Source of the DNA: Melampsora larici-populina 98AG31
Lineage: Eukaryota; Basidiomycota; Pucciniomycetes; Pucciniales; Melampsoraceae
Direction of reading: 5' to 3'
Assembly: GCF_000204055.1 (NCBI RefSeq)
Contig: NW_006768823.1
Span: 179,064 to 243,063 of the forward strand
DNA length: 64,000 bases
The notes under the pieces were generated by a model. The model was not told the origin of the DNA. It ran no database searches and saw only the letters and a list, made by a program, of their open reading frames with translations. Each line of letters begins with the position of its first letter. The stretch's first letter is position 1. Of this stretch, positions 1,119-49,703 are shown piece after piece. The translations under genes were made by a program, and so were the position numbers.

Positions 1119-2992
1119 TTATCCTCGGCTTTCCAGACGCGTATTCCCCTTGCTCTTCGGCCGTTCTCCTTGGCTCAGTTCCTGTAGGTATAAATTGAAA
1201 TGTACAAATCTTTTAGTCTCGAATATGTATTTAGCTAGTAAATGAAAAATCTTAGGCGAGTCTAACAATTTGGAACTGCTGTTCCAGTTGACTCGGATGC
1301 CTTCTTCTTTCATCTTCATCCTCATCCTTTTTCTTGCCTTCAAGTATTTTCTGCAGTCAAGTAAGAGCGATTAGTGTTTTCAATGAGACCACAGTTGTCA
1401 CATTTGGGAGTGTCAGCTAAACTTCTTTTGTGGAGGTGAGCATTGAGTGGACTATGTCCCGCTCTGAGTTGAAATATTACCGCTGCACAGCCTTTCTCTA
1501 AGTTGTCTAGTTCCTTGGCAATATCCTTTGCTTTTGTTCTAAACTCATTTTTACCTGGTTTAAAAGGGAAACTGTTGATGTTGAAGTTTTCGTTGGTTCG
1601 TTTCTTAAGGCTTCCTAAGCTTGATGGTAGTGACATTGCCATCTCTTGATCAGTGGCTGCCTTTCCTGCCCATTCATCGGCTAGTTTGTTCAATTCGATT
1701 CCTTTGTGTCCCGGTGTCCAGAAGAAGTTGATCTTTGTGTTTTCTGGTAGTTTTCTTAGTGTTGTACGTATTTGTATTTGCAAATGTTGTCCTGAGGTGG
1801 CTTTGGGTATGTCGTGTATTAATCTTAATACCCCTTGATTATCGCTGAAGATCGATAGTCTTGTCGGTGGAGGCCTTTGTTTTTTGAAGATATCAACTGC
1901 CAGTTCCGCTGCGAGGAGTAAACCTAGGAGCTCTGTCTCGTGGTTTGAGTAGTTGTTATTGTAGGTAACTGATTGAATCCTGCTAAGTTCTTTCGACACC
2001 GCTGCTGCTCCACCACCATCTTCTTTTACTGATCCGTCCGTGAAAATTATCAGGGCGTCTTCTTCTTCCTCCTCAGCGATTTGAGTTGGTAGTTTTTTGA
2101 TGACGTCTTCTCTCTTCTGATCTAGATTGAACACTTCTCCAATACGTCTAGCCCAAGGTGCTATAGGGAACACGTACACTGTTTCCACTACCTCTTTGGC
2201 TAATCGTCGTAGTTGATGGTCATTGATGATGTCTTGAATGGGTCCTCCGTGGGTTTTTGGTGTTTGTGAAAGCTCGTTAATGATGAACGTCCTCGTGGGG
2301 TGGGTTTCAGGTGCTGTCAACCTTTTTAGAATGAATCCGTGATGATTTTGGGCCGCTATCCATGAAAATGGGGGGAGAAAGACATCGTGACTCATCATAT
2401 TGTTTGATGTGCCTCTGAAGGCACCGATTGCAATTCGGTTAGCGCTATTTTGTATTTTGTCTAGGAGTTTCAGAGATTTTTTGTATGTTTTCTTTGTGAA
2501 CCAAGCTATGCTGCCGTAAAGAATTCTCGGTATGAGTACTGTTATAATGAGCTTTTTGACTTCCTTTGAACCTAGTCCTGAATAGCATTTGTTGAGTCTT
2601 CTAAACTGTTGTAGTGTGAATTCAGCGTTCTTTGACATGTGATGTAGATGACTGTTATATGAGAGTTTTGGGTCTAACCAGAGTCCCAACCATTTCACCT
2701 CTGTTTTTGGTTGTATTATGGTCTCGCCAAAATTAAACGGTGGGAAATTTTGGTTGCGTTTGTTGGTGAAGTGCCTAAGTTGAGCTTTCTTCTTATCGAA
2801 GATTGCGCCGTGTTTCCGGGCCCATTCCAGTGATTTGTCGGCATGGGTTTTGAGTAGGGCTAGGTTCCTTTCCCAGTCAGGTGACACTACTAGGTGAACC
2901 ACATCATCGATGAATCCTAATGACAATTTCTTGTCCTTGGGATTTGGGGTGTTGCAGGGATGCAGGTATGAGCATGAGCATACCGTGCTCAC
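1119..2992 (-). pseudogene. LINE ORF2, 3' half: reverse transcriptase end, RNase H, C-terminal region (frameshifted)
   Basis: This is the C-terminal half of a non-LTR retrotransposon polyprotein, which copies element RNA into DNA at the target site. The reading frame runs from the LTR junction at 2992 down to a stop at 1340. It opens just before the catalytic FIDD (RT xxDD) motif. An RNase H domain follows with the expected acidic residues: FTDGSV, HETELLG, FSDNQG and ADEWAG. A C-terminal CDNCG motif precedes a frame break. After the break a second frame (1343 to 1119) continues plausibly with LLLDCRKY and LLAKYIFETKRF, which resemble the usual LINE C-terminus, so one frameshift near 1360 splits the tail. 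The N-terminal RT and endonuclease are missing, and the chromovirus LTR begins exactly where the frame ends. The copy is inactive. Confidence 0.85.
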
Positions 2993-3186
2993 TGTTATGA
3001 ACACATATCATGTCACGTACACGAAAGCTATTACACACATGTCATGTTGTATAGATTGGTCTATTTATCCGCACTCCACGTTGTACTGTTTTCTCTTCCC
3101 TTATCCGACAATCTCAATAACCCAGTTGGACTACCAGGAACTCATCTTCACTCCGTGCTCCAAACCCCGGCAGGACAGCCGTAACA
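2993..3186 (+). repeat. 5' LTR of chromovirus 1
   Basis: This 194-bp LTR begins TGTTATGA and ends CCGTAACA, with TGTTA/TAACA as the inverted termini. I see no difference from the copy at 8845-9038. Flanking bases are ctcac on the left and cacac on the right of the element, a 4 of 5 match for a target duplication. A TCCACGTTGTAC motif at 3075-3086 and the ATCCGACAAT sequence at 3103-3112 are also present in the LTR of chromovirus 2, which places the likely transcription start near 3103. Confidence 0.95.
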
Positions 3187-3197: not shown

Positions 3198-3544
3198 CTC
3201 CAATAACGGACTGAAGATATTCATTAAAAGAATCGATTAATTGAAGAACGAGAAAATTAAGATTAGAAATCAAGATTAGATTAGAATTTAAAAGATTTTC
3301 AGGATTTACACCGAACCTTATCTCCACAAGAACCCTCACTAGAACCGAACACAATCTAAAACCTTCCGCATATACGTAGACTTAGTTGAATCGAAGCTCC
3401 AACACCACGTCGCCCACATACCAAACTCCCGGTGATAGCGACGACGCTTCCGAATCTGAGACGCCCACCTCCTTCGTTGACGCCGACGAATTCACCGGCG
3501 TACTTACCGATACTGAACCTTTCATTAGTTCTAACCCCGCACTA

Positions 3545-4627
3545 ATGGAGGAAATCCAGAAACAGTTGGCCGAACTCGCTAGTTCAGTTCAGGAAGAACG
3601 ACGCATGCGCCTCGAGGCAGAAGTTCGAACGTTGAACGCCGAAGCTAGGCTGGCAGCGATAGAGGCAGCTCAATCCTCTGACACCTCTGGCCAACAACCA
3701 CCACCTCCACCTCCATCCTCGGAGACCCCTCGAGAACCTCCCACACAACATGTGATGACTGCTACCACCCCTAAAGGACCAAAGGTCGCAGTTCCCGATA
3801 AATTCGATGGGACTAGGGGTGGTCCAGCCGAGATTTTCGCCAGCCAGGTGCAGCTTTACATGCTAGCCCAACCACACCTGTTCCCGGACGATAAGAGCAA
3901 GGTCATTTTCGCTCTGTCCTACCTGACTGGAGCCGCGAGTAGCTGGGCGCAACCACTCACTGCCGAATTATGCGACGCTGCCACCGCCCACCAAGTTACC
4001 TTTGATCGATTCGTCACGAATTTCAAAGCGATGTACTTCGATACGGAAAAAAAGTCCAAGGCCGAGCGTGCCATCAGAGCTCTATCTCAGAAGGGGTCAG
4101 TCGCCACGTACACCCATCAGTTTAATATCTACGCTAGTGCCACTGGATGGGAAGTACCAACCCTCATCAGTCAGTACGAGCAAGGACTCAAGAAGGAGAT
4201 ACGTGTTGCTATGGTGATGATGCAGGACGAATTTAAGTCATTAGAACAAGTCGCAAACCTCGCTATTAAAATCGACAGCAAGATTCACGGCGTATCTGAT
4301 CAGACCTTTGCCACCGCCAACTCCGCGCCTGACCCGAATGCGATGGATATATCAGCCGCCTATGTGCGACTCTCTGCTGATGAACGAGCGAGGAGAATGA
4401 GAGGGGGTTTATGCTTTAGATGTAACGGTCACGGGCATATTTCGTCTGATTGTCCTGATAAGAAAGCGGGGAGACCTTGGAAGGGGAAGAGTAATTTTAA
4501 ATCTAAGATAGCTGAGTTAGAAGTGAAGTTAGCAGCAATGAAGGCTAAAGATGAGGGTCAAGATGATAAACAAGAGGGAACGAGTAGGGGAGATACATCA
4601 AAAAATGGAGGAGCTCAGGATTGTTAG
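3545..4627 (+). CDS. Gag of Ty3/gypsy chromovirus 1
   Basis: Gag is the capsid and nucleocapsid protein that packages element RNA. The first ATG of the frame is at 3545 (MEEIQKQL), giving 360 residues. The equivalent Met is conserved in chromovirus 2. An N-terminal coiled-coil-like segment rich in E, L and R is followed by a proline-rich linker. Next is a retrotransposon gag domain with LYMLAQPHLFPDD and YFDTEKKSKAERAIRAL. Near the C-terminus is one CCHC zinc knuckle, CFRCNGHGHISSDC, and then a basic, low-complexity tail. The frame stays open upstream to a TAG at 3383-3385 without an ATG, and that extension is conserved in the second element. Gag ends at a TAG inside the frameshift stem-loop, overlapping pol in the -1 frame. 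Confidence 0.93.
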   Translation: MEEIQKQLAELASSVQEERRMRLEAEVRTLNAEARLAAIEAAQSSDTSGQQPPPPPPSSETPREPPTQHVMTATTPKGPKVAVPDKFDGTRGGPAEIFASQVQLYMLAQPHLFPDDKSKVIFALSYLTGAASSWAQPLTAELCDAATAHQVTFDRFVTNFKAMYFDTEKKSKAERAIRALSQKGSVATYTHQFNIYASATGWEVPTLISQYEQGLKKEIRVAMVMMQDEFKSLEQVANLAIKIDSKIHGVSDQTFATANSAPDPNAMDISAAYVRLSADERARRMRGGLCFRCNGHGHISSDCPDKKAGRPWKGKSNFKSKIAELEVKLAAMKAKDEGQDDKQEGTSRGDTSKNGGAQDC

Positions 4628-4644
4628 GTGTGCCTACCCTGAGC
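4600..4644 (+). promoter_or_regulatory. Programmed -1 ribosomal frameshift signal (gag-pol)
   Basis: In the gag frame the codons tca aaa aat give the canonical X_XXY_YYZ heptamer A_AAA_AAT at 4600-4606. A six-base spacer follows. Then a stem forms between GCTCAGG (4613-4619) and CCTGAGC (4638-4644). The gag stop TAG (4625-4627) lies inside the 18-nt loop. Shifting back one base enters the long pol frame. Chromovirus 2 has the same heptamer, the same spacer length and an equivalent stem with a compensatory base change. Confidence 0.8.
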
Positions 4645-7600
4645 CACCGAGAAAGTGTTATGACAGTTGAAGTTGGATCTACTAGAATTATGCATTGCAA
4701 TGAAAATGATCACCGTGTTTTCTTCAAAACTTCAGTATCCCTGTCCCACTTTCCTCGCGCCACACCACCCAAACTTTTTCATCCATTTTTCCTTATTGAC
4801 TCTGGTGCCACTCACAACGTCCTGAGCGAGTCATTTGCATCCAGAGTAGGCCTCCTTGACCACGCCGACAAAACCACAAGAGTAGTGACTGGCTTCGACG
4901 GATCTGTCAGTCAGTCCTCCTACGAGATCAACCTGAACCTTGGCAACGACACAACTCCGACACCCTTTATCATTACGAAGATCAAAGACACCTACGACGG
5001 GATATTAGGTATCCCATGGATCAAGAAGAACCACACCCGCATTGATTGGACATCCGGATCGATACGACACGATGAAGACCACATAGCAACTGCGGACGCA
5101 GTTTCGTCATGTCCGACAACACCCTCCGCAGGCCATGGTATGGACCCCACGAGGGAAGCTAGGATCAGTGACGAGGGGATGTGTATTAAGACTGTAACAT
5201 CCCCGCTATGTGAGTACCTTAATCCTTTAGACCCTGAATCGAAAGAAACAGCTGGAAAGCATTTCTTTACCACTATATCTCAGACGACGACAAGCACGAC
5301 ACCACCTGAAACCACAACACCAAACTGCGACACAAATGATGACCAATGCAACGACGACGACGCACATGCGACCACACCAGTGGTCTCGTCCGTTCCACAA
5401 CTGAACCCCCTGGAACCCGACGAGGAGCCTGAGGGGCATACTAGGAAACGTGACGAGGGGGCCAGCACTTTTAAAAGTACTACAGAGCCCCCGCAATGTG
5501 AGTACGATACAGTCCACCCTGATCCATCCCGTGAAGCAGCTGGCCAGTTTGACTGCCTCCTGAATAGTGCCCCACCCGCCACCATCGACGCAGCGAAGAC
5601 TTCATGGTCTACATCGGCAAGAATAGCGGCGGACTCAAAGATGAATGCCCCAGTCAAAACGGTCGAAGAGATGGTGCCAACCCGCTACCACCGCCACCTC
5701 CATATGTTTCAGAAGTCGAAAGCTCTCTGCCTACCACCGAGAAGGAAGTACGACTTCCGAGTAGACTTGATCCCAGGTGCTCAACCCCAGGCTAGCCGAA
5801 TTATTCCACTCTCACCAGCTGAGAATGAAGTTCTTGATGAAATGATCCAAGAAGGCCTGGCAATTGGCACGATTCGAAGAACCACATCACCCTGGGCGGC
5901 GCCTGTCCTCTTCACGGGGAAGAAGGACGGGAAGCTAAGGCCTTGTTTTGACTACCGAAAGCTCAACGCTCTCACTGTCAAGAATAAGTATCCTCTGCCC
6001 TTGACCATGGACCTGGTAGATAGCTTACTTGATGCCGAGAAGTTTACCAAACTGGACTTGCGTAACGCATACGGCAACCTGAGAGTTGCTGAAGGCGACG
6101 AAGACAAGCTAGCATTTATATGCAAGCAGGGACAATTCGCACCTCTTACAATGCCATTTGGGCCTACCGGAGCGCCGGGATATTTCCAATATTTCATACA
6201 GGATATCCTCGTAGGCCGTATTGGAAGAGACACCGCTGCTTACCTGGACGACACAATGGTTTATACAAAGAAAGGTGTGGACCACGAGGGAATAGTGGAT
6301 GGAGTTCTAGAAACATTGAGCAAACAGCAATTGTGGCTTAAGCCTGAGAAATGCGAATTTTCAAAGGACGAAGTCGAATACTTGGGACTGATTATTTCAA
6401 AAAACAAGATTAAAATGGATCCAGCTAAAGTCAAGGCAGTCAAAGAATGGCCAGCCCCTCGTAACACCCAAGAACTGCAGCGTTTCATCGGATTTGCCAA
6501 CTTTTACCGAAGATTTATAGACCAGTTCTCAAAACAAACTCGCCCACTTCACGATCTGACAAGACTGAATAGACCCTACACGTGGAATGAAGCATGCGAA
6601 AAGGCTTTTGAGGACTTAAAGACAGCTTTTACTTCGGCGCCAATTCTCAAGATTGCGGACCCATACAAGCCATTTATCTTAGAATGTGACTGCTCGGATT
6701 TTGCGCTGGGCGCAATACTGTCCCAAAAATGCGAAACCGACGGCGAACTTCACCCCGTAGCTTACTTGTCACGATCCCTAGTCCAAGCCGAACGAAACTA
6801 CGAGATTTTCGACAAAGAGCTTCTAGCGATAGTGGCCTCCTTTAAGGAGTGGCGTCACTACCTAGAAGGTAACCCCAACCGACTGGAAGTCATAGTGTAC
6901 ACGGATCACCGTAATCTCGAACACTTTATGACGACGAAGCAGTTGACGCGCCGACAGGCCAGGTGGGCCGAGACTCTTGGTTGTTTCGACTTCGTAATCA
7001 AGTTTAGGCCAGGCAGACAGTCCACGAAGCCCGACGCGCTATCACGACGCCCGGATCTGAAGTCTGACGATGACGACAAACTCAATTTCGGTCAAATACT
7101 CAAACCACAGAAAATCACACCGGACACATTCATGGAACTAGATGCTATAGAAGCCTTCTTTGACGACGAATCAATCCAGCTGGAGGACGCCGAACATTGG
7201 TTCGAAATTGACGTATTGGGAGTATCAGATGCAGAGGAGGAGACAAACGAGATATTGACTGACAACACATTGATTAGCATGATCAGGGAGAGTAATAACG
7301 AAGACAACCGTATCACAGAACTTATGAATGCCTGCCAAAATCCTATATCGTCAAAAGTCAAGAAAGCTTTACAACATTATACGGTAAACGATGGAATTCT
7401 GTACAACCAAGGTAAAATTGAAGTGCCCAATGTCGAAAAAATCAAGTACGAAATAGTCCGCAGCCGTCACGACACATTATTAGCGGGACATGCTGGAAGA
7501 GCTAAGACACTCGCGCTGGTCCGCCGTAGCTTTATATGGCCGTCACAAAGAGCATATGTGAACAGATACGTAAGTGGGTGTGATTCATGTCTCAAAGTTA

Positions 7601-8748
7601 AGACAAGCACGCAGAAACCTTTAGGCACATTGGAACCATTGGCAATACCATCGGGACCCTGGACAGACATCTCATACGACTTAATCACTAAACTCCCGGT
7701 CTCAAACAACTGCGACAGTATCCTAACAGTTGTGGACAGATTAACAAAAATGGCGCATTTCATCCCTTGCAGGGAAAGCATGAGCGCGGAGGATCTGGCC
7801 GACCTGATGATCAAATACGTCTGGAAACTCCATGGGACACCTAAGTCTATTATTTCTGATAGAGGTAGTATTTTCATATCCCAAATCACAAAAGCACTAG
7901 ATGCTCGATTAGGAATCAAACTACACCCCTCCACTGCTTTTCACCCCCGCACTGATGGTCAATCCGAGATAGTGAATAAAGTAGTCGAGCTGTATATCAG
8001 GCATTTCACGAATTACCGTCAAGATAATTGGGAGTCGTTATTACCTATGGCCGAATTCACGTATAACAACAACGACCACGAGTCGACAGGCGTTTCACCA
8101 TTTAAGGCGAACTACGGATTCGACCCAATGTTTAACAAGGTCCCATCCCCGGAGCAATGTATTGCAGTAGTAGAAGATAGGTTGAATAAAATCGAGGAGG
8201 TACAACTGGAGCTAACTCATTTTCTACAATTAACGCAGGAGAGAATGAAGCAGCAATTCGACAAATAAGTAGAGAAGACACCACACTGGAAAGTGGGCGA
8301 GCAAGTATGGTTGAACGGAAAAAACATTTCGACCACAAGGCCCAGCCCGAAATTGGAACATAAGTGGCTAGGTCCTTTTGACATTAAAAAAAGAATATCT
8401 AATTCTACTTACGAATTGAACCTCCCACTGTCAATGAAAGGAATTCATCCAGTTTTCCATGTTTCTATCCTTAGGAAGCATCAAACAGATACCATTGATA
8501 ACAGACTGCAACCACCACCAACCCCTATCGAATTAGAAGGTCAAACAGAATGGGAAGTTGACTCAATTCTAGATTGTCGAAAAAGAAGAAATCAACTTCA
8601 ATACCTTATAAGCTGGAAAGGGTTTGACGCAAGCCATAATTCATGGGAACCGGAGAATAATTTAAAAAACTGTAAGGATTTACTTCAAGAATTCAAAATT
8701 AGATTCCCAGATGCTTTAAGCAAGTACAAAAGAAGAAGGAGAAGATGA
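4621..8748 (+). pseudogene. Pol of chromovirus 1: protease, RT, RNase H, integrase, chromodomain; one in-frame stop
   Basis: This polyprotein carries out replication and integration. In order it shows an aspartic protease (LIDSGATHN, near residue 60), a reverse transcriptase with YLDD (residue 541) and RNase H (LECDCSDFALG, near 690). The integrase has an HHCC zinc finger (HDTLLAGHAG...CDSC, from about 945) and DDE-core stretches VVDRLTK and ISDRGS. The C-terminal chromodomain (EWEVDSILDC...YLISWKGF...NSWEPE, about residues 1310-1355) places it among chromoviruses. It is expressed by -1 frameshifting from gag. A TAA at 8266-8268 interrupts the frame between integrase and chromodomain. The frame resumes at once and matches chromovirus 2, so this is a nonsense change (a CAA to TAA change would explain it) and the copy is probably defective. 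Confidence 0.93.
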
Positions 8749-8844: not shown

Positions 8845-9038
8845 TGTTATGAACACATATCATGTCACGTACACGAAAGCTATTACACACATGTCATGTT
8901 GTATAGATTGGTCTATTTATCCGCACTCCACGTTGTACTGTTTTCTCTTCCCTTATCCGACAATCTCAATAACCCAGTTGGACTACCAGGAACTCATCTT
9001 CACTCCGTGCTCCAAACCCCGGCAGGACAGCCGTAACA
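8845..9038 (+). repeat. 3' LTR of chromovirus 1
   Basis: This copy shows no difference by eye from the 5' LTR at 2993-3186 over 194 bp, which indicates a recent insertion. It starts TGTTATGA and ends CCGTAACA. Confidence 0.95.
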
Positions 9039-16900: not shown

Positions 16901-18205
16901 ATGTCAGTCAAAATTTCTAAACCAACTTCTACTCAACCTTATTCTTCGGATAGATCATTATACGTTGGAAACTTAACCGATGATGTGAATGTTCAAGATT
17001 TACTTAACATCTTCAGCCAAGCTTCTCCAGTGATCAATGCAAGAGTTTGTATCGATAGAATCACTCAAAAACCTCGTGGTTATGGATACGTTTCTTATGC
17101 AACTCCAGAAGAGGGTAAGTGAAAGTTCTGATAAAAGTCTTGAAACGAAGATGAATTGAATCACTAATTCTGGTTTCTTTTGTCTTTGTTTTTTTTAGCT
17201 GATCTCGCTTTAAGAGAATTTAATCATATCAACCTCAAAGGTAAACCTATCAGAGTGATGAGATCATACTCAGGTAAACCAAAAGAATTTCCATCAGAAG
17301 CTAATTTATTCATCAAGAACTTACCTAAATCATTCACACCTATCAATTTACATGATAGTTTCGAAAGATTTGGTAAGATCTTATCTTCCAAGATTTCATT
17401 TGATCAATTAGGTAATTCAAAAGGATATGGATACATTCAATTCGAAAACCCAAAAGATTCAAACGAAGCGATCCTTAATTCAAACGATTTCCAATTTGAT
17501 ATAAAAGATGAAGAAGAATCTAAGAACATGAAGAAATTAAAAGTTACCAGTTATGTGAAACCAGAAGATAGAAAACCAAAGTTTACAAATGTGTTTTTTA
17601 GAAACTTACCATTAGATTTCACAGAAGAATCTTTCTCGAAATACGCCAGTGAATTCGGTAAGATTACTTCATTAATCTTGAATCCGATTAACAAATCAAA
17701 AGCTAAGACTAGAACTGGAAATGTAAACTATGAAGATTGGAATGTAGCAAGTAAATTAGTAGAAGAAAGTAAATCAAAAGGACCAGGTGAGATCATTGCC
17801 TTACGTTCGATCAAGCGATCTACTCTAAAAGCAAGTTTAACTCCCAAGAAACCATCCAAGGAATCCAAAGAAAACCCACAAACCAAACCTAAACATAAAC
17901 CATTATATTCCAAAACGACCATCAAAGTTAGTTTTGTTCCAATTCATTTTTCAGAAACTCATTTGATTGAAAGTTTTTCAAAATATGGTAAAGTTTTATC
18001 TTCTAAAATTATTGAAGATAAAAATCCATCTTCTGATGATCGATTTGGATTTGTTACATTTGAAAATCATGAATCGGCATCTGAAGCTATTAAATCTTCA
18101 ATTTTACAACAAGATGTTTGGAATGTTAGACCTGCTATTAATAATCAACGTCGAAAATTCAAAAAAGTTGATCAAATCCCTAATCCTACTGAAAAATCAA
18201 CTTGA
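16901..18205 (+). CDS. Poly(A)-binding-like protein with four RRMs
   Basis: It is an RNA-binding protein, likely acting on mRNA in cytoplasm or nucleus. Two exons, 16901-17114 and 17199-18205, are joined by an 84-bp GTAAGT...TTTTAG intron and give 406 residues. Four RRMs are visible: RNP2 LYVGNL with RNP1 RGYGYVSY; LFIKNL with KGYGYIQF; VFFRNL with a weak RNP1; and a divergent IKVSFVP with DRFGFVTF. A Lys/Ser/Pro-rich linker separates RRM3 and RRM4. The order resembles PABP-family proteins, but the C-terminal MLLE domain is absent, as in the yeast Pes4/Mip6 group. The third RRM lacks the aromatic RNP1 residues, so it may not bind RNA in the usual way. The family level is sure; the specific orthologue is not. 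Confidence 0.85.
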
Positions 18206-23774: not shown

Positions 23775-25930
23775 TCAATCACTAAAAACATCATGAGATG
23801 AATGATTTGAATGATTTGAATGATTTGGAGGAGCAGGAGAATTAGATGTAGTAGCTTTTAATGCTTTAATCCTTTCGATCTCTTTAACTCTTTCTCTAAT
23901 CCCATAAGTTCCATCCCTACCACCTTGATTGATTCCATGTTGAGAGAGTCCTAAAGACATTCCCCAAATCCCTCCAGCTCCTTGTGTCCATCTTTCTGAT
24001 GAAGACAAATTAGATGATGAGATCGATTCATTTCCACTTGGATGATGATGATGATTACTATTCGCAAAGGCTGCTCTATAGATTTGATTGGGGTTGGGGA
24101 CCATCATCGAAGTAGAGTGTCTTAAGATTGGATTACGTTGATTGGATGGGAAACTATCGGATAAAGTCTTTTCTGAAGTCAAATTCGATTGGAATGTAGA
24201 AGGATAATTATCAGGTCTTCCTGTTCGGTTTAATTGAGGTGGAGTTGTGAATTCATTAGGTAATTGAAGAGATGGTCTCATAGGTCGTGAAGAAGTAGAA
24301 TTAGATCGATATCGAGTCGAACGAGGCGGATGAGATGGTACAACATCAGATAAATGGGTGACAGTATAATCCACTGCTGTGGTATGTTGATCAAGACTTG
24401 ATGTTGAAAGACTGGTAGGTATTGATGAGATATCTTCATCAGCTTCAGGTGTAAGTGTGCTAGTAGGTTTTACAGGCTTTTCAACTGGCATCGCTTCACT
24501 TTCTACCCAAACATATTCTCCTGTTCCGTTTTCGGCATTCTCTACTGCTCCTTTACTACCCACACCCGGTAGTTTAAGAACTCGAACTTTAGGCCATACT
24601 AAATTATCCACAATCCAACCTCGTAGTCGTCCTAAGATCAGTTGTTCAACTTTTGGAATATCTTCGAGTTTTGCTCGAGCTCCTAATAAAGATGTCGTCG
24701 ACATGCAAAGTGTGAAATCTGGATCAAGGGAGAGCAGTATCGCCGGTGTAGGTGCAGCAGGATCATGTTCGACAGGTAGTGGAATAGCCACAGGGGGTAT
24801 TTCAGCCATAACCTAATCAAAACCGTATTTAATCAGTGAGAATTGCATAGAAATAGATTGGTAGCACTGGAATCAGGGAAAAGAAGCTTACAGTGGCCGA
24901 AAGTTGATTCAAAGTGATACCCAAGCAGACAGGCAACACAGCGAAGCGGGAAGTTGGAAAGTTGATAACGACCTTTGTTTCAATCGAAAGTGTAACGTGA
25001 TCCGAGTAATCCACATCCACCTCAATCCTCTGGTCAATTTACAAAAAAAGTTACAGAGGGTCAGATAAACCATTGATCGGGTAAACCTCGAAGAATAGAA
25101 TCTCACCATTCTTCCAGTTTCATCAGCAGGTCTCACACGTGCGTTTGTGCACAAAGGAAATTGATCACCAAAGTCCACCTCAGTGACGGTGATGTAATCC
25201 TATGAGCCAGACCGAAAAAAGCAAAACAAAAAAGATGAACCAAGATTTGAAAAGTGAATCATAAGATGATTTGATCACTCACAATACTGATAAAGCCTGG
25301 CTCACCATCTCTGACTGAGTTAAGAGCCTCTTCGACCATCCTTTTTGCTTTTTCGCCTCTAGAGGAAGAAGCCGATTCTTCATCAAGTTCACCATGAACT
25401 AAACTACGATATGCTACAATGGCTTGAGCGACCAAAACGTTGAGCCAGTCTGCTGTCTCGGGTGGATGAGTTGAAAGATCATAAGATAGTTTGGATAAGA
25501 CGTCAGGTACGAGTGGTTTTACATTTCGATCCGCAAGTGAGGGTCGATTTCGGCGAGAAGAGATGATGGACGATCGACGAGGTTTCTATGAGATTTGAAG
25601 TAAAGGAACTGATTAGTTGTGTAAAACTTTTGAGATTTCAAAAAATTGATAAAACCATTCCGACAGGGAAACAAAAACCTGCCTTATGACGTCGATTGTG
25701 ACGAGCAGCTTCCGGATCTTCGAAGATTACATACCTAACAAACAAGATCACCACGATGATACTAAAATATTCGTAATCAGAAAAAGATTAGTGATAAGAA
25801 ACTGATCATGGAACTGATTGACTAACAGAGAAAGTTGGCCAACAAGTACCCCTTGAGTGAAAGTAAGACGTAAAAACCGAGAAGATTGATCGGGTGCCGA
25901 AGGAGGAGTCTTGTTGGCTGCTTGGACCAT
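23775..25930 (-). CDS. MMM1: ERMES complex subunit Mmm1 (maintenance of mitochondrial morphology 1)
   Basis: Mmm1 is the ER-membrane anchor of the ER-mitochondria encounter structure and transfers lipids through its SMP domain. Exons are 25930-25827, 25761-25683, 25585-25283, 25199-25107, 25029-24892 and 24812-23775 (584 residues). After LTFTQGVLVGQLS a transmembrane helix, SLIIVVILFVRYVIF, is split by the first intron. The SMP domain includes DWLNVLVAQAI, YITVTEVDFGDQFP, VTLSIETKVVINFP and a segment ending KLEDIPKVEQLILGRL. The remaining C-terminus of about 230 residues is Ser/Pro/Asn-rich, longer than usual, and probably disordered. The second intron only stays in frame with a GC-AG boundary (gcaggt...catag) or an unusual downstream donor. 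Its divergent neighbour upstream is over 1 kb away. Confidence 0.9.
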
Positions 25931-43353: not shown

Positions 43354-43397
43354 CAGTTGACTTTGTCAAAACCAATACTCAAAAAAATGGAGGTAAA
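43354..43397 (-). mobile_element. Left terminus of a pogo-like DNA transposon (cut by chromovirus 2)
   Basis: The bases CAGTTGACTTTGTCAAAACC start just after a TA (43352-43353). They are matched in inverted orientation by GGTTTTGAACAAGTCAACTG, which ends at 51437 just before TA. Termini starting CAGT with a TA duplication are typical of pogo/Tigger elements. Only 44 bp of this end remain before the chromovirus LTR. Confidence 0.75.
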
Positions 43398-43593
43398 TGT
43401 TAGGACTGCTCTCGGGGTTTGGTTCTGACGGAGGGTTAAGGAGTCTTCCGTATATCTATCCTAGTAATGCAAATTGTCGGATGAAGAAGAAAGAGAGGCT
43501 CTCGCCGTACAACGTGGACTACACTATGAGGTATCTGTGATATGTAGCATCGGGCCTTTCACATCCTGTTACATGCTGTATAGGATCATAACA
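43398..43593 (-). repeat. 3' LTR of chromovirus 2
   Basis: This 196-bp LTR reads TGTTAGGA...ATAACA on the plus strand. It differs from the other LTR (49210-49405) at one position that I can see (ctcgggg against cttgggg). GTAAA at 43393-43397 matches GTAAA at 49406-49410, a perfect 5-bp target duplication. Confidence 0.96.
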
Positions 43594-43597
43594 GTAT

Positions 43598-43679: not shown

Positions 43680-46600
43680 TTACCCTCTCACCCTTCTCCG
43701 TGTCCTTTTATGTCTACTTGATGCGTCTGGAAACTTCTTGTTGAATTCATTTACTAAATCATTACTATTTTTTAAATTAATTTCAGGTTCCCATGAATTG
43801 TGTTCCGTGCTGAATCCTTTCCAAGCTACTAAATATTCCTTCTTCTTGTATCTTTTGCGACAGTCTAAGATTTCAGATACTTCCCATTCCTCATTGTCAT
43901 TGATTGTGATTGCTGAAGGTTCTGTTTGCCGTCTTTCATCAATTGTGTCTTGAGTGTGCTTCTTCAGTAAAGATACGTGAAATACCGGGTGTACGCCCTT
44001 CATGCTGATCTTATACGCTGATCTTGATATTTTTTGAATGATGTTGAACGGGCCAAGCCATTTGTGATCTAATTTTGGGCTTGGTCGCGTAGTTGAGATA
44101 TTTTTTCTGTTAAGCCATACTTGATCTCCCACTTGCCAGTCGGGTGTTGGCCGTACGTTCTTGTCGAAATGGTACTTCATGTCCTCCTGTGCTATGTTCA
44201 AACATTCAGTCAGTTCTTCTTGTACATCATGTAGAGTTTTAAGCCGTGCTTCGACTATTGGTAGACATTGTTCTCTTGACGGTACTCCACTGAAACAAGG
44301 TTCGTAACCGTAGTTTGCCTTGAATGGCGAGACTCCTGTTGATGCGTGATCCCTGTTATTATACGCAAACTCGGCGATCGGTAGTAATGTGTCCCAATTG
44401 TCCTGTTTATAACACACAAAGTGTCGCAGGTATTGTTCAATTACCTTATTGACAATTTCCGTTTGCCCATCTGTGCGTGGGTGATACGCGGTTGAGAGAT
44501 GTAATCGGATGCCTAGTTGTTTGTCTAGTTCTTGTGTAACCTGTGAAACAAATATACTACCTCTATCCGAAATGATCGTCTTAGGTGTGCCGTGGAGTTT
44601 CCATACGTGTTTGATCATCAGGTCGGCTAATTGATCCGAGGTCATAGTTTCTCTGCACGGAATGAAATGGCCCATTTTTGTTAGTCTGTCAACAACCGTC
44701 AGGATGCTATCATTGCCGTTTGACAGAGGTAAACTGGTAATCATGTCATAACTTATGTCGGTCCAGGGTCCCGCCGGTATCGGTAGTGGCTCTAGTGTGC
44801 CAAATGGCTTCTTCGTGCTGGTCTTCATCCTCAGGCATGAGTCGCACCCGTCGACGTATTGGTTAACGTATGCTTTCAGCGAAGGCCATTGGAAGCTTCA
44901 ACGCACTAATCCGAGAGTCTTGGCCCTTCCCGGGTGTCCTGCTATCAAACTGTCATGTCGACTCTTCAGTATGTGGTGCTTGATGTAATCATCGTCTGGT
45001 ACCTCTATCCGGCCTTGATTATACAATACCCCGTCCTTCGCTTTGAATTTGTTCGTCAGCTCGTGGAATTTGGCCGATATGGGGTTTTCGACAGCTTGAA
45101 TTGTATCTTGCAGTCTTGAGCTCTTAAGTGTCGCTGTGCGTATCAGGTTAATGATCTCAGTATCATTCAAAATGGATTCTTCAGTGTCCGTCTCCGTGAT
45201 TCCTAGTATGTCAACCTCGAACCAGTGGTCAGCATCTTCCAATTCAACCTCTTCGTCATCAAAAAACGCTTCAATGCATGCAAGTTCTGGTGGGAATGTG
45301 TCTTCACCGATGTTTTCTGGTCGTAGCATCTGACCGAAAGTCAGCTTCTCTTTCTCACTTGGTGCTAAGTCAGGCCTTCGAGATAAAGCATCAGGTTTGG
45401 TTGCTTGCCGGCCGGGTCGGAACTTGATTTGGAAGTCAAAACAGCCCAGTGTTTCCGCCCAACGGGCTTGCCTCCTAGCTAGCTGCTTCGTGGTCATGAA
45501 TGTCTCGAGGTTGCGGTGGTCGGTGTACACAATGACGTCTAGCCGGTGTGGGTTGCCTTCCAGGTAGTGGCGCCATTCTTTGAAAGAAGCTACAATCGCC
45601 AGCAGCTCTTTATCGAAGATCTCGTAGTTGCGTTCAGCTTGAACCAGAGATCGTGATAAATACACTACCGGGTGCATCTCACCGTCCTCCTTACATACTT
45701 GTGATAGTACCGCTCCCAAGGCAAAATCAGAACAGTCACATTCGAGTACGAAGGGTTTGTACGGGTCCGCGATCTTCAGTATAGGGGCGGATGTAAATGC
45801 AGTCTTTAGAGTGTTGAATGCTGCCTCACATTTAGTGCTCCATACGTACGGGGTCTTGTCACACGTCAGTTCATGTAGGGGTCTAGTTGTTCTGGAAAAC
45901 TGGTTGATGAATCTTTGATAGAAGTTTGAAAAGCCTATGAATCGCTGCAGTTCTGATACATTCTTGGGTGCAGGCCATTCTGCTACTGCTTTCACTTTAG
46001 CCGGGTCCATCTTGATTTTGTTCTTTGAGATTATCAGGCCTAAATATTCGACTTCGGGTTTAGAAAATTCGCACTTCTCAGGTTTAAGCCAGAGTTGATG
46101 CTTTTCGAAGATGTCGAGTATCTTGTTAACCACTTCTTCATGTATTACACCATCCTTTGTATAGATCATAGTGTCGTCTAAAAACACCGCCGCGTCCTTC
46201 CCGATATGAGCAAGAAGGATGTCCTGCATGAAGTATTGGAAATACCCCGGTGCGCCTGTGGGTCCGAACGGCATTGTCAGTGGTGCGAACTGGCCTGCTT
46301 TACATATGAAAGCTAGTTTGTCTTTGTCGCCTCCAGCAACTCGTAAGATCCCGTATGCATTACGCATATCTAATTTAGTGAATTTGTCGGCGTCTAGAAG
46401 GCTATCCACGAGGTCCATAGTAAGAGGCAGGGGATATCTATTATTGACGGTTAATGCATTGAGTTTCCAATAATCGAAACACGGTCTTAAATTACCGTCC
46501 TTTTTTCCCGTGAATAAGACCGGAGCGGCCCAAGGAGATGTTGTTCGGCGTATTGTACCGCTAGCCAGTCCTGCATTCACCATCTCGTCCAAAGCTTGGC

Positions 46601-47801
46601 TTTCCGCTGGTGATAATGGGATTATGCGACTGGCTTGGGGTCGTGCACCTTCAATGAGATCAACTTTAAAATCGTACTTGCGCCTTGGTGGTAATCGCTG
46701 AGCCTTTGATTTCATAAACATATGTAGGTGTCGATGGTAGCAAGATGGTACCATTTTTTCCAAGGGTATAGTTGGAGCTTTCAGTTTCTCGTCGGCTGCT
46801 ATTCGGGCTGACGTCGACCAAGATGCTCTGGCTGCTGATATCTCGAGAGGGCTGCTAGCATTCAAGGGAGACAAAAGCTTGCTAGCTGTTTCAAAGACGG
46901 GGTAGATGGGACGGGTATCGAACTCACATTGCGGGGGCTTGGATGTATTCAATAAGATACTCGCCCCCTCGTCATAGTTCCTAGCGTGCCCTGTGGGCTC
47001 CATTGGGCTTCCAGGGTTATGTTGCGGACTTGACAAAGCTGTTGCGACAGCTGCAATGTGGTCCTTCTTGTTGGGTTCCGGGTTCGTGTCGTGTACGTGT
47101 GTCGGGATGGTGTTGTTCAAAAATGTTTTGGTGTCTGTCTGTAATTTTAGAGGAGGTACAAGCTTGCCAGTCTCTTCTAAGGAATCACGGATTATAGAAT
47201 CAATATCAAACTCACTCTGCGGGGATGTTAATGCATCATTTTGAATGCGCATCCCCTCGTCACGATTCTTAGCGTCCCTCCCAAGTTCCACGTTAGGGTC
47301 CATAGAGGGTTTTGTCAGATCGGACGACTCCAAAGCCACGGAGGCAATTGATGTTCTTTCAGATTGAATCGTGCCGTTTGTCCAGTCGATGGTGTGGTGA
47401 TTCTCGCGTATCCATGGGATACCTAAGATGCCGTCGTAAGTATTCTTGATGTCAATGATAATGAATTTGGTCCGGTGATTGTCATTCTTGATGATGAGGT
47501 CTACTTCATGAGTTGAGCTGGTTGCTGAACCATCAAAGCCTGTAACAGCTCGTGAAGTCTGGGTTGCGTGGGGAAGAAGGTTTGCTTTCCGAGCATATTC
47601 TTCGCCTAAGACATTATGAGTGGCTCCTGAGTCAATTAAGAGACGAGCAGGGGGTGAGTCAATTGGTGTGGCACGGGTTATTTGGGGCAATGAGAATGGG
47701 ACTGAGTAAAACAAGCGTGGATCACGTGAATTGCATTTTACAACAGTGCTAGCCCCTAAATCAATTGCATCTAAAATAACCTCTTTGCTCAAGCTAGGCA
47801 C
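43680..47801 (-). pseudogene. Pol of chromovirus 2: protease, RT, RNase H, integrase, chromodomain; one in-frame stop
   Basis: It has the same domain order as in chromovirus 1: protease LIDSGATHNVLGEEYA, RT with FLDDTM, RNase H LECDCSDFALGAVLS, integrase zinc finger SRHDSLIAGHPGRAK...CDSC, DDE-core VVDRLTK and IISDRGS, and a chromodomain EWEVSEILDC...YLVAWKGF...NSWEPE. It is fused to gag by -1 frameshifting. A TGA at 44898-44900 cuts the integrase zinc-binding region, where chromovirus 1 has Arg-Arg-Ser. A CGA to TGA transition explains it. The frame continues cleanly on both sides. The remainder is intact, so the lesion is probably young. Confidence 0.93.
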
Positions 47802-47831
47802 GACCTTCAGGCTTGAGCGCCTCCATTTTTT
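47787..47831 (-). promoter_or_regulatory. Programmed -1 ribosomal frameshift signal (gag-pol)
   Basis: On the minus strand, codons tca aaa aat give the heptamer A_AAA_AAT (47831-47825). A six-base spacer follows, then an eight-base-pair stem GCTCAAGC (47818-47811) with GCTTGAGC (47794-47787). The gag stop TGA (47809-47807) is in the 16-nt loop. Compared with chromovirus 1, the sixth stem pair changes from G-C to A-U on both sides, so pairing is preserved. Confidence 0.82.
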
Positions 47832-48856
47832 GAATTATCAGATCTACTACTCCCTTCACCTCTATCCTCTTTATCCTCTCCTTTCCCATTCAAAGCTGCC
47901 AACTTCACTTCTAATTCTGCTATCTTAGCTTTATAACTATTCCTTCCCTTCCCTTGACTATCTGATTTGCGGTTAGGGCAGTATGTAGATATGTGACCTT
48001 GTCCGTTGCATCTGAAACAGTGTCCTGTGCGTAATCGTTTGGTACGTTCTTCTTCGGATAGTCTGGTGAATGATGCTGATATGTCCATTGCGTTAGGGTC
48101 GCGGATTACAGGAGCTGAAGCTGTGGACGTGTCAGGTACACCGTGGATCTTGTTGTCTAATTTAATGGCTAAGTTAGAGATTTGTTCAATGCTTGTGAAC
48201 TCTTCTTGACACATAACCATCGCCACCCTAATTTCACGTTTCAAGCCTTGTTCATATTGACTGATCAACGTAGGGGTCTCCCAACCAGTACTAGCCGCAT
48301 GCAGATTGAAATCATGGGTATAAGCTGCTACCGTTGATTTCTGAGTGAGAGCTCGGATTGCTTTTTCAGCTTTGGATTTCTTCTCGGTGTCAAAAAACAT
48401 TGCTTTGAAGTTGCGAACAAGTCGTTCATAGGTGACATTGTGGGCAGTTGACGAGTCAAACAGTTCGTTCGTGAGTGGTTGAGCCCACGCGCTAGCAGTA
48501 CCCGTGAGGTAAGATAGGGTGAAAACTACCTTAGCGCGATCATCCGGAAAAAGGTATGGATGGGCCATCATGTACAATTGTACCTGGCTGGCGAAGACTT
48601 CAGCCGGACCACCACGAGTGCCACTGAATTTATCAGGTGCTGAGACTTTTGGTCCCTTCAGGACAGGGGGATGTTCAGGTCGCACGGTATCGACGGCAGG
48701 GTTGTTTCCGCCGTTAGACGCCACCGATTGGGAGGCTATCATAGCCTCTAAAAGCTCTTCGGCTTGTCTGCCTCTAGCTTTGGCCTGTTCATGAAGTTGT
48801 CGCTCTTCGTTCAACGAGGTCTGTAAGTTTGCGATTTGTCGTTGTATTTCTTCCAT
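47807..48856 (-). CDS. Gag of Ty3/gypsy chromovirus 2
   Basis: 349 residues from the first ATG (MEEIQRQIANLQ). A coiled-coil-like N-terminus is followed by a gag domain with DKFSGTRGGPAEVFASQVQL and FFDTEKKSKAEKAIRAL. One CCHC knuckle, CFRCNGQGHISTYC, precedes a basic tail ending SKNGGAQA, which is encoded over the frameshift signal. The frame is open for about 65 further codons upstream to a TAA with no ATG. Part of that extension (TTSPSYRTPADDVESDSES) resembles the chromovirus 1 extension. It is otherwise uninterrupted. Confidence 0.93.
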   Translation of the reverse strand: MEEIQRQIANLQTSLNEERQLHEQAKARGRQAEELLEAMIASQSVASNGGNNPAVDTVRPEHPPVLKGPKVSAPDKFSGTRGGPAEVFASQVQLYMMAHPYLFPDDRAKVVFTLSYLTGTASAWAQPLTNELFDSSTAHNVTYERLVRNFKAMFFDTEKKSKAEKAIRALTQKSTVAAYTHDFNLHAASTGWETPTLISQYEQGLKREIRVAMVMCQEEFTSIEQISNLAIKLDNKIHGVPDTSTASAPVIRDPNAMDISASFTRLSEEERTKRLRTGHCFRCNGQGHISTYCPNRKSDSQGKGRNSYKAKIAELEVKLAALNGKGEDKEDRGEGSSRSDNSKNGGAQA

Positions 48857-49198
48857 GATGTCTGAGTTCGAATCACTCAAATGCGGGGTAGTAGAAGTAT
48901 CGAGAGGGTTTGATCTTCCTTCAACTACGGATGTGTATGATTCGCTGTCTGACTCGACGTCGTCGGCGGGGGTTCTGTATGAGGGAGACGTGGTAATAGG
49001 ATTCCGAGGGGTTCGATGCAGGTCTGTTGAGTATCTTGAGGTTTAGTAGAAATAAGGTTACGGCTGAATCTAATTGGTGAACCTTGATTATTGAGATGGG
49101 GATTAACCGGATCTGAGTTTGGGGTTCTGGGTTCTTCGAGAAAATCTGATATCGTGGGTTCTAGTCTAGAGTTGATTCCTTAACGCTTGTCGATTTGG

Positions 49199-49294
49199 AT
49201 CCGACAATATGTTAGGACTGCTCTTGGGGTTTGGTTCTGACGGAGGGTTAAGGAGTCTTCCGTATATCTATCCTAGTAATGCAAATTGTCGGAT
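49199..49294 (-). promoter_or_regulatory. Self-priming pair: LTR start of R and primer-binding site
   Basis: On the minus strand ATCCGACAAT in the 5' LTR (49294-49285) is complementary to ATTGTCGGAT (49208-49199), one base after the LTR. The spacing matches chromovirus 1: U3 is 111 against 110 bp, and R-U5 is 85 against 84 bp. TCCACGTTGTAC lies upstream at 49330-49319, as in chromovirus 1. Confidence 0.75.
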
Positions 49295-49405
49295 GAAGAA
49301 GAAAGAGAGGCTCTCGCCGTACAACGTGGACTACACTATGAGGTATCTGTGATATGTAGCATCGGGCCTTTCACATCCTGTTACATGCTGTATAGGATCA
49401 TAACA
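49210..49405 (-). repeat. 5' LTR of chromovirus 2
   Basis: A 196-bp LTR nearly identical to 43398-43593 and followed by the GTAAA target duplication at 49406-49410. It carries the predicted promoter motif and start of R on the minus strand. Confidence 0.96.
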
Positions 49406-49703
49406 GTAAAGCTATTGGTTTTGACCAAGTGTCTGTTCAGATCTCTGTCAAAACCGATAGAAATTGCATTGCAGACAAATTATTGGTTATGAAAGAGAAA
49501 CATATCTACAATTTATATCACAAAGTATCTTTAGAGAAGACATCTTTGAGGCTTTGCTGCTTGGCAGCTTTGAAACGGACTAAGAGACAATGTCTTACAG
49601 AGGCACTAATGGTGTGTTCAAACCCTTTGATTTCATCACTTGGATCTTAACCAAGATATCCTAACATAATTTCTGAGGCTTTGAGGAAGGCTTTGTGAGT
49701 TGG

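Follow-up and report, generated by a model that had tools for sequence, protein, structure and literature searches.

Introduction

In SARS-type coronaviruses a slippery heptamer lies a few bases upstream of a pseudoknot, and the stop codon of ORF1a is found near the slip site. Frameshift stimulators are typically located about 5–9 bases 3' of the heptamer. To our knowledge, most of the frameshift pseudoknots described come from a modest number of viruses, and the change that a working pseudoknot tolerates has mostly been inferred from designed mutants. As summarised in PMC5009743, the signal of SARS-type coronaviruses is a three-stemmed pseudoknot, IS elements carry a second stem-loop 44–104 nt downstream, and fungi use +1 as well as −1 frameshifting.

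Here we analysed a window of 64,000 nt from Melampsora larici-populina 98AG31 (the whole stretch of DNA under study, positions being counted from its first base), which holds two retrotransposons, referred to below as elements 1 and 2. A first-pass annotation had placed a conserved −1 frameshift signal with a stem-loop at both gag-pol overlaps. Judging from the comparison of related copies in the same genome, we consider it highly probable that the overlaps contain a −1 programmed frameshift signal with a three-stemmed H-type pseudoknot as its stimulator, belonging to a large Ty3-type (chromovirus) retrotransposon family.

Materials and methods

The genome was searched with two 160-residue pol queries, one per element, and 150 scored matches were used for each, of 290 and 312 candidates. 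DNA was taken for 140 loci (L009–L148), of which 136 yielded a heptamer-like site; these correspond to 133 places and 107 distinct segments. Left out were 20 regions, C31:589898 and five places whose match started at query residue 27 or later; L099, L115, L121 and L132, with matches likewise starting there, were placed by the heptamer pattern. Eight loci found by the signal's own pattern (L001–L008) were excluded from the 107-segment counts. Three loci (L061–L063) were dropped as the same places as L012, L011 and L023, and four (L036, L059, L096, L139) because they had no heptamer match, L036 having five A and L096 reading AAAGAAT. For the tests on stem 3 and on the bulge, L099 and L115 were dropped because the partner was misaligned.

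A segment was said to have a long open pol when the open frame reached at least 1226 aa, rows listed with stops being removed; this class includes L102, whose frame of 9104 aa is implausible, and L058, which has a pol-frame stop directly after the heptamer. The 5343-aa frame of L035 is as implausible for the family as that of L102, and both may run through masked bases. The tree-aware null simulated the evolution of the 3' base, its tree being derived from flanking protein columns, and the stem 1 result was obtained in two runs. The held-out set consisted of 15 copies outside model building, picked by hand for spacer resemblance from 100 listed places matching AAAAAATGGNNNNNCTC. The DNA evidence comes from one host genome, and the cross-species evidence is protein.

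Results

Both elements encode gag, protease, reverse transcriptase, RNase H and integrase domains and are Ty3-type retrotransposons (Table 1). In each element the two long terminal repeats match without a difference (over 194 nt in element 1 and 200 nt in element 2), and the insertions are therefore probably recent. The first-pass annotation had called both of them chromoviruses. This was borne out for element 2, in which a chromodomain (PF00385, E = 1.7e-13) lies at the C-terminus of the integrase; its pol is broken by a single in-frame stop at 44898. In element 1 no chromodomain was found in the pol frame of 1226 aa, a length that many relatives exceed (commonly 1385, up to 1502 aa). Adjoining element 1, the open frame at 1343–3007 (−) encodes an RNase H domain (PF00075) and is possibly a non-LTR retrotransposon remnant. 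Host-like sequences in the window were a gene with RRM domains at 17168–18205 (+), a gene for an MMM1-domain protein at 23775–24812 (−) and a fragment of an AMP-binding enzyme at 36630–37370 (+). The RRM gene (17168–18202) matches a protein of M. larici-populina at 100% identity over 49% of its length and one of M. americana at 73% over 93%, which agrees with the poplar leaf rust fungus as the most likely host.

On re-reading of the two overlaps, the A_AAA_AAT heptamer was found in the gag frame of both elements, followed by a spacer of exactly six bases and by a stem of 7 or 8 bp with the gag stop codon inside its loop, and pol overlapped gag in the −1 frame. All of this was as the first-pass annotation had described it, and the double change from G-C to A-U that it had noticed between the elements is real and falls on stem pair 6. 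Stop-codon readthrough of the Tca2 type was ruled out, pol being in the −1 frame rather than in that of gag.

Table 1. Positions in the window of the two retrotransposons and of the parts of their gag-pol junctions.
Feature	Position	Strand	Remarks
Element 1, 5' long terminal repeat	2993..3186	+	194 nt matched, 100% identity to 8845-9038
Element 1, 3' long terminal repeat	8845..9038	+	match to 2993-3186
Element 1, gag frame	3386..4627	+	stop to stop; PF03732, PF19259, PF00098
Element 1, pol frame	4588..8268	+	-1 relative to gag; protease, RT, RNase H, integrase domains
Element 1, slippery heptamer A_AAA_AAT	4600..4606	+	in gag phase
Element 1, six-base spacer	4607..4612	+	direct read
Element 1, stem 1 5' strand GCTCAGG	4613..4619	+	
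Element 1, gag stop TAG in stem 1 loop	4625..4627	+	last base is first base of stem 2
Element 1, stem 2 5' strand GGTGTG	4627..4632	+	in stem 1 loop
Element 1, stem 1 3' strand CCTGAGC	4638..4644	+	
Element 1, stem 3 5' strand CGAGAAAGTG	4648..4657	+	
Element 1, stem 3 3' strand CACTTTCCTCG	4747..4757	+	one bulged base
Element 1, stem 2 3' strand CACACC	4761..4766	+	inside pol
Element 2, long terminal repeat	43397..43596	-	200 nt matched, 100% identity to 49209-49408
Element 2, other long terminal repeat	49209..49408	-	match to 43397-43596
Element 2, gag frame	47807..49042	-	frame analysis and domain matches
Element 2, pol frame, first part	44898..47834	-	ends in in-frame stop
Element 2, pol frame, second part	43680..44897	-	integrase core and chromodomain
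Element 2, slippery heptamer A_AAA_AAT	47825..47831	-	in gag phase
Element 2, six-base spacer	47819..47824	-	direct read
Element 2, stem 1 5' strand GCTCAAGC	47811..47818	-	
Element 2, gag stop TGA in stem 1 loop	47807..47809	-	
Element 2, stem 2 5' strand GGT(C)GTG	47799..47805	-	one bulged base at 47802
Element 2, stem 1 3' strand GCTTGAGC	47787..47794	-	
Element 2, stem 3 5' strand GGTTATTT	47774..47781	-	
Element 2, stem 3 3' strand AAATAACC	47676..47683	-	
Element 2, stem 2 3' strand CACACC	47665..47670	-	inside pol

The combination of heptamer and stem is widespread in the genome. The pattern AAAAAATNNNNNNGCTCA matched 159 times in 98.3 Mb, against 8 times for the reversed pattern, and this excess argues that the signal is not due to chance; AAAAAATGGNNNNNCTC gave 241 matches, against 14 when reversed. 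Among 109 distinct 67-nt segments, the heptamer read AAAAAAT in 102, GAAAAAT in 6 and AAAAGAT in 1. The variant GAAAAAT, with five A in the same phase, was present at 8 located loci (7 places, 6 distinct segments), and G_AAA_AAT is a poorer fit to X_XXY_YYZ. When the 5' arm of stem 1 was tried at +2 to +10, all seven pairs formed in 93 of the 107 segments at +6, in 63 at +7, a register that draws on the eighth stem pair, and in at most 19 elsewhere, making six bases the best of nine spacings. The first-pass annotation had proposed to look for family members that lose the heptamer or the stem while keeping pol open. The signal largely survived this test: the 37 distinct segments with a long open pol had A_AAA_AAT in 34 and G_AAA_AAT in 3, and seven stem pairs in 36 and six in 1.

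Some observations concern how copies are distributed. L021 and 16 further loci make up 17 places identical over the 67-nt signal, many of them with a 1385-aa open pol, and this subfamily is probably a recent burst. On contig C10, two heptamer-stem signals lie 251 nt apart on the same strand (G000:C10:1266607-1266624 and 1266858-1266875), as if the gag-pol junction had been duplicated in tandem. No relatives were found in viral contigs by protein search; a DNA pattern scan of these contigs gave at least 120 matching stretches, which we take as chance.

We then considered stem 1 across the family. With G-U counted, all seven standard pairs were present in 93 of the 107 distinct segments, six in 11 and five in 3, and the stem was complete more often beside a long open pol (36/37) than in other segments (57/70; p = 0.031). 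The 29 arm combinations, among them GCTCAGG/CCTGAGC, GCTCAAG/CTTGAGC, GCTCGGG/CCCGAGC, GCTCGAG/CTCGAGC, ACTCGGG/CCCGAGT and GCTCAGA/TCTGAGC, formed 166 Watson-Crick pairs, compared with at most 159 in 20000 re-pairings. Corrected mutual information over about 4850 column pairs (102 columns) ranked stem 1 pairs 6 and 5 as the top two. Under the tree-aware null, pair 5 was formed in 100/107 segments (null mean 57) and pair 6 in 101/107 (null mean 56.5), each as high in 0 of 2000 simulations; the tree was quick-built, with 29 of its 104 inner branches well supported and several rows on long branches. An independent-pairs sign test gave a median p of 0.016 for pair 6 and had too few contrasts for pairs 1, 5 and 7. 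The covarying stem that the first-pass annotation had proposed from a single double change is well supported, pairs 5 and 6 exceeding the tree-aware expectation. The hairpins alone were not unusually stable (z = −1.19 and −0.09 in 60-nt folds of the two elements), and the evidence for the stem, drawn as it is from aligned copies, is comparative and not thermodynamic. An eighth pair was rejected as a general feature, since it occurs in some clades only. Likewise, a mini-hairpin inside the loop (AGG...CCT), seen in folds, was not taken as general: three of the loop bases are missing from one clade (span 35), and G occupies column 19 in just 60/101 rows.

A second complementarity links the loop of stem 1 with pol. 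The loop carries the motif G(N)(N)GUG, whose complement CAC(N)(N)C is found in pol about 115 nt 3' of stem 1, and the two occur in matching forms: GGACGTG/CACGTCC, GGATGTG/CACATCC, GGTGTG/CACACC, GTTGTG/CACAAC and GATATG/CATATC. Codon usage at both ends was fixed. The pol-frame Val codon in the loop was GTG in 104 of the 104 rows with Val (three rows do not have it), compared with just 43 of 205 Val codons further downstream. The partner includes an Ala codon, followed by Thr, that lies about 150 nt from the heptamer and was GCC in 95/95, whereas a second Ala-Thr pair in the protease active site, about 45 nt beyond it, was synonymously free (GCC 43%, ACT 37%). Between stem 1 and the partner, a Ser AGT, an Asn AAT and a Ser TCC codon were also unusually uniform, for which the relatedness of the copies alone may account.

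Within the 300 nt that follow stem 1, the mean duplex energy was lowest at the partner site (−8.1), the mean of all offsets being −3.55 (sd 1.1) and the next lowest value (−6.3) that at the second Ala-Thr pair. In 36 of the 107 segments (4.8 expected) the partner surpassed every other site within 300 nt, and in the other 71 another window outpaired it. Among the 56 loop/partner combinations, own pairing exceeded all of 20000 re-pairings. The two variable pairs of stem 2 were equalled in 0 and 4 of 2000 simulations of the tree-aware null (0.002 for the latter), and the independent-pairs sign test had too few contrasts for significance. By class, 65 of the 107 segments formed a direct stem 2 of 6 bp, 29 formed 6 bp around a one-base bulge, 7 reached 5 bp and 6 were weaker or broken; the 37 with a long open pol comprised 19 direct, 14 bulged, 4 five-pair and no weaker ones. 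A bulged stem 2 predicted an extra G at loop column 19 (26/26, against 35/75 of the direct ones; p = 2e-7). One subclade (L120, L124, L137, L138, L142, L147) has the loop GGATGTGTC in place of GTGCC, with the partner CCCACATCC.

A third covarying helix was found between the bases directly after stem 1 and those directly before the stem 2 partner. In 105 segments, the duplex of own strands had a mean energy of −16.2 kcal/mol, compared with −12.2 for swapped strands, which was beyond 20000 re-pairings. When windows were scanned downstream, the lowest mean energy belonged to the one whose end lies a single base short of the stem 2 partner; in 59/105 the best window ended within 5 bases of the partner. 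The insert (97–121 nt), folded alone, had its ends paired in 103/105 segments, including 37/37 of those with a long open pol, against 292/1050 dinucleotide shuffles. The stem 2 partner sits 3' of the second strand of stem 3, outside the stem 3 loop. With respect to the stem 3 hairpin, a kissing-loop or apical loop-internal loop stimulator was rejected, since its partner would lie within the loop of a second hairpin.

In the held-out copies, all 7 pairs of stem 1 were present in 11 and 6 in the remaining 4, the search pattern itself fixing three bases of one arm. By a scripted rule (at least 5 pairs in the expected range), stem 2 passed in 11 of the 15 and failed in 4; swapped loops also pass in 57% because many copies share GTTGTG. 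By eye, the failures were a register shifted by one in L272 and L273 and weak pairing in L271 and L281. L283 has a changed stem 2 pair (loop ...GTC, partner GAC...), yet an equally good site is present elsewhere. In terms of energy, own pairing was matched by none of 20000 re-pairings for either stem 2 or stem 3, and by 1 of 20000 for each after removal of two near-duplicates. The gag stop was at +15 in 10, at +18 in 4 and at +12 in 1. The fifteen copies support both the loop-partner pairing and stem 3.

The placement of the gag stop was also conserved. Counted from the heptamer in the 109 distinct segments, it was at +15 in 98 (all TGA), at +18 in 6 (all TAG) and at +9 in 5 (4 TGA, 1 TAG), the last of which fall in the 5' arm of stem 1, outside the loop; L124, L138 and L147 are loci with the stop in this arm. 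Among 33 gag relatives (7996 candidates scored), 18 end in SKNG..., including 5 proteins from Puccinia graminis, P. striiformis and P. triticina, and the stop follows the Asn by 5 codons in 17 and by 6 in one (P0014). A further 4 (P0013, P0015, P0017, P0026) end in PLN or ALN in place of SKN, the stop likewise being five codons on; 4 are truncated or different and 7 are distant. An SKN C-terminus fits A_AAA_AAY. The PLN and ALN endings would fit a slippery site changed to U_UUA_AAY, as read back from the protein.

Discussion

The frames, the phase of the heptamer, the spacer, the three covarying helices and the conserved stop are features of the sequences themselves, and a stimulator can be proposed from them. 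The first-pass annotation had described it as a stem-loop. Its covarying stem holds, and a plain stem-loop does not, since the loop finds its complement about 115 nt downstream and the stretch between is closed by a third helix. The distal pairing and the third helix together are therefore best read as a three-stemmed H-type pseudoknot, and on this reading the loop-embedded stop codon is mostly a stop in pseudoknot loop 1. The best account of the geometry would have 7–8 bp in stem 1, about 7 nt in loop 1 and about 6 bp in stem 2, with stem 3 closing a long third loop. That the pseudoknot forms in the cell, and that ribosomes slip at some frequency, we infer from this arrangement.

It could be argued that the local stem-loop alone is the stimulator and that coding or composition gives rise to the distal complementarity and to stem 3 as by-products. 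In the account given in PMC7618472, a 7-bp stem with a 10-nt loop in human astrovirus 1 is thought likely to act alone, and the 71 segments in which another window outpairs the partner point the same way. We nevertheless regard this as quite unlikely, because the loop Val and partner Ala codons are synonymously fixed while the second Ala-Thr pair is free, because loop and partner covary, new combinations in the held-out copies included, and because stem 3 beats every re-pairing and most shuffles. Loop-distal pairing can serve packaging or dimerisation signals too, and coding sequence can be overlapped by structured RNA elements; the structure might then be such a signal of the element RNA, merely overlapping the gag-pol junction. 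Since nearly every segment has an in-phase heptamer six bases from the 5' edge of the structure, the placement that a frameshift stimulator needs, this is very unlikely as the explanation, and a dual role in frameshifting and in packaging or dimerisation is possible.

The shift of frame could also arise elsewhere than in ribosome slippage. A run of A is a classic substrate of transcriptional slippage, and RNA polymerase might slip on the six-A run. We find this highly improbable, given that the five-A GAAAAAT keeps the same phase at its 8 loci, 3 of its distinct segments having a long open pol, and that the preferred six-base spacer and the covarying pseudoknot would be left unexplained. Pol might instead be reached by termination and reinitiation at an ATG overlapping the gag stop (NTGA): a TGA stop makes the overlapping pol codon NTG, and some copies do read ATGA. 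The base before TG is A in just 16/101, however (C 34, G 31, T 20), element 1 with its TAG stop has no ATG there, and the heptamer would have no explanation, all of which makes reinitiation extremely improbable.

If the three-stemmed pseudoknot does stimulate −1 frameshifting, the signal would set the ratio of Gag to Gag-Pol. The pseudoknot, six bases ahead, would stall a ribosome that has AAA in its P site and AAU in its A site, and some of the ribosomes would re-pair on AAA AAA and continue into pol. Stem 3 would close the intervening stretch and park the stem 2 partner beside stem 1, and ribosomes that do not slip would terminate at the stop codon within or at the edge of loop 1. We further speculate, with considerable doubt, that the position of the gag stop is part of the machine, making the signal a self-limiting switch by which Gag-Pol output depends on how ribosomes are spaced. 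In such a switch, an in-frame ribosome would end at or near loop 1, where it could melt stems 1 and 2 and would never reach stem 3; the intact stem 3 would keep the partner parked, and the knot would re-form quickly for the next ribosome. A slipped ribosome, on the other hand, would plough through stem 3 and the partner, disarming the signal for its followers. If this is true, the Ty3 elements of rust fungi would have retained a self-limiting switch, and hundreds of its natural variants would be at hand for testing.

One fungal genome thus offers more than 100 natural versions of one signal, 37 of 107 distinct ones lying beside a long open pol. Their variation spans compensatory changes in three helices as well as variants of the bulge, the heptamer and the stop, and the sequence rules of a complex frameshift stimulator can be tested directly. 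A further implication is that distal parts more than 100 nt away may be overlooked where a simple stem-loop is called at the gag-pol junction of a retrotransposon.

In the titles and abstracts covered by a partial literature search, we found no description of a three-stem arrangement for a fungal Ty3 element, and the survey summary in PMC5009743 gives no covariation-supported three-stem pseudoknot for one. The rust elements resemble other LTR retrotransposons with −1 sites in having pol in the −1 frame relative to gag and a classical heptamer (a 2003 survey, as summarised in PMC5009743). They also resemble PEG10, a domesticated Ty3-type gag-pol with a −1 frameshift and a pseudoknot stimulator (PMC5009743; direction as given in PMC2800197). 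PEG10 differs in being a mammalian gene, and the summary in PMC5009743 describes its stimulator simply as a pseudoknot, with a third stem unmentioned there. As in the elaborated pseudoknot of HCoV-229E and the apical loop-internal loop pseudoknots of IS elements, in the form outlined in PMC5009743, the apical loop of a proximal hairpin would pair with a distal segment; in those systems, however, the partner is in the loop of a second hairpin, whereas in the rust elements it lies just 3' of stem 3. The SARS-type coronavirus signal, as outlined in the same source, is built alike in that stem 2 is made from the stem 1 loop and a 3' segment, with an extra stem between (PMC5009743). In contrast to it, the rust elements have a connecting loop of 97–121 nt, a stem 1 of 7–8 bp and a stop codon in or beside loop 1. 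The likeness is one of topology, with no sequence relation claimed, and the rust signal belongs to a fungal retrotransposon.
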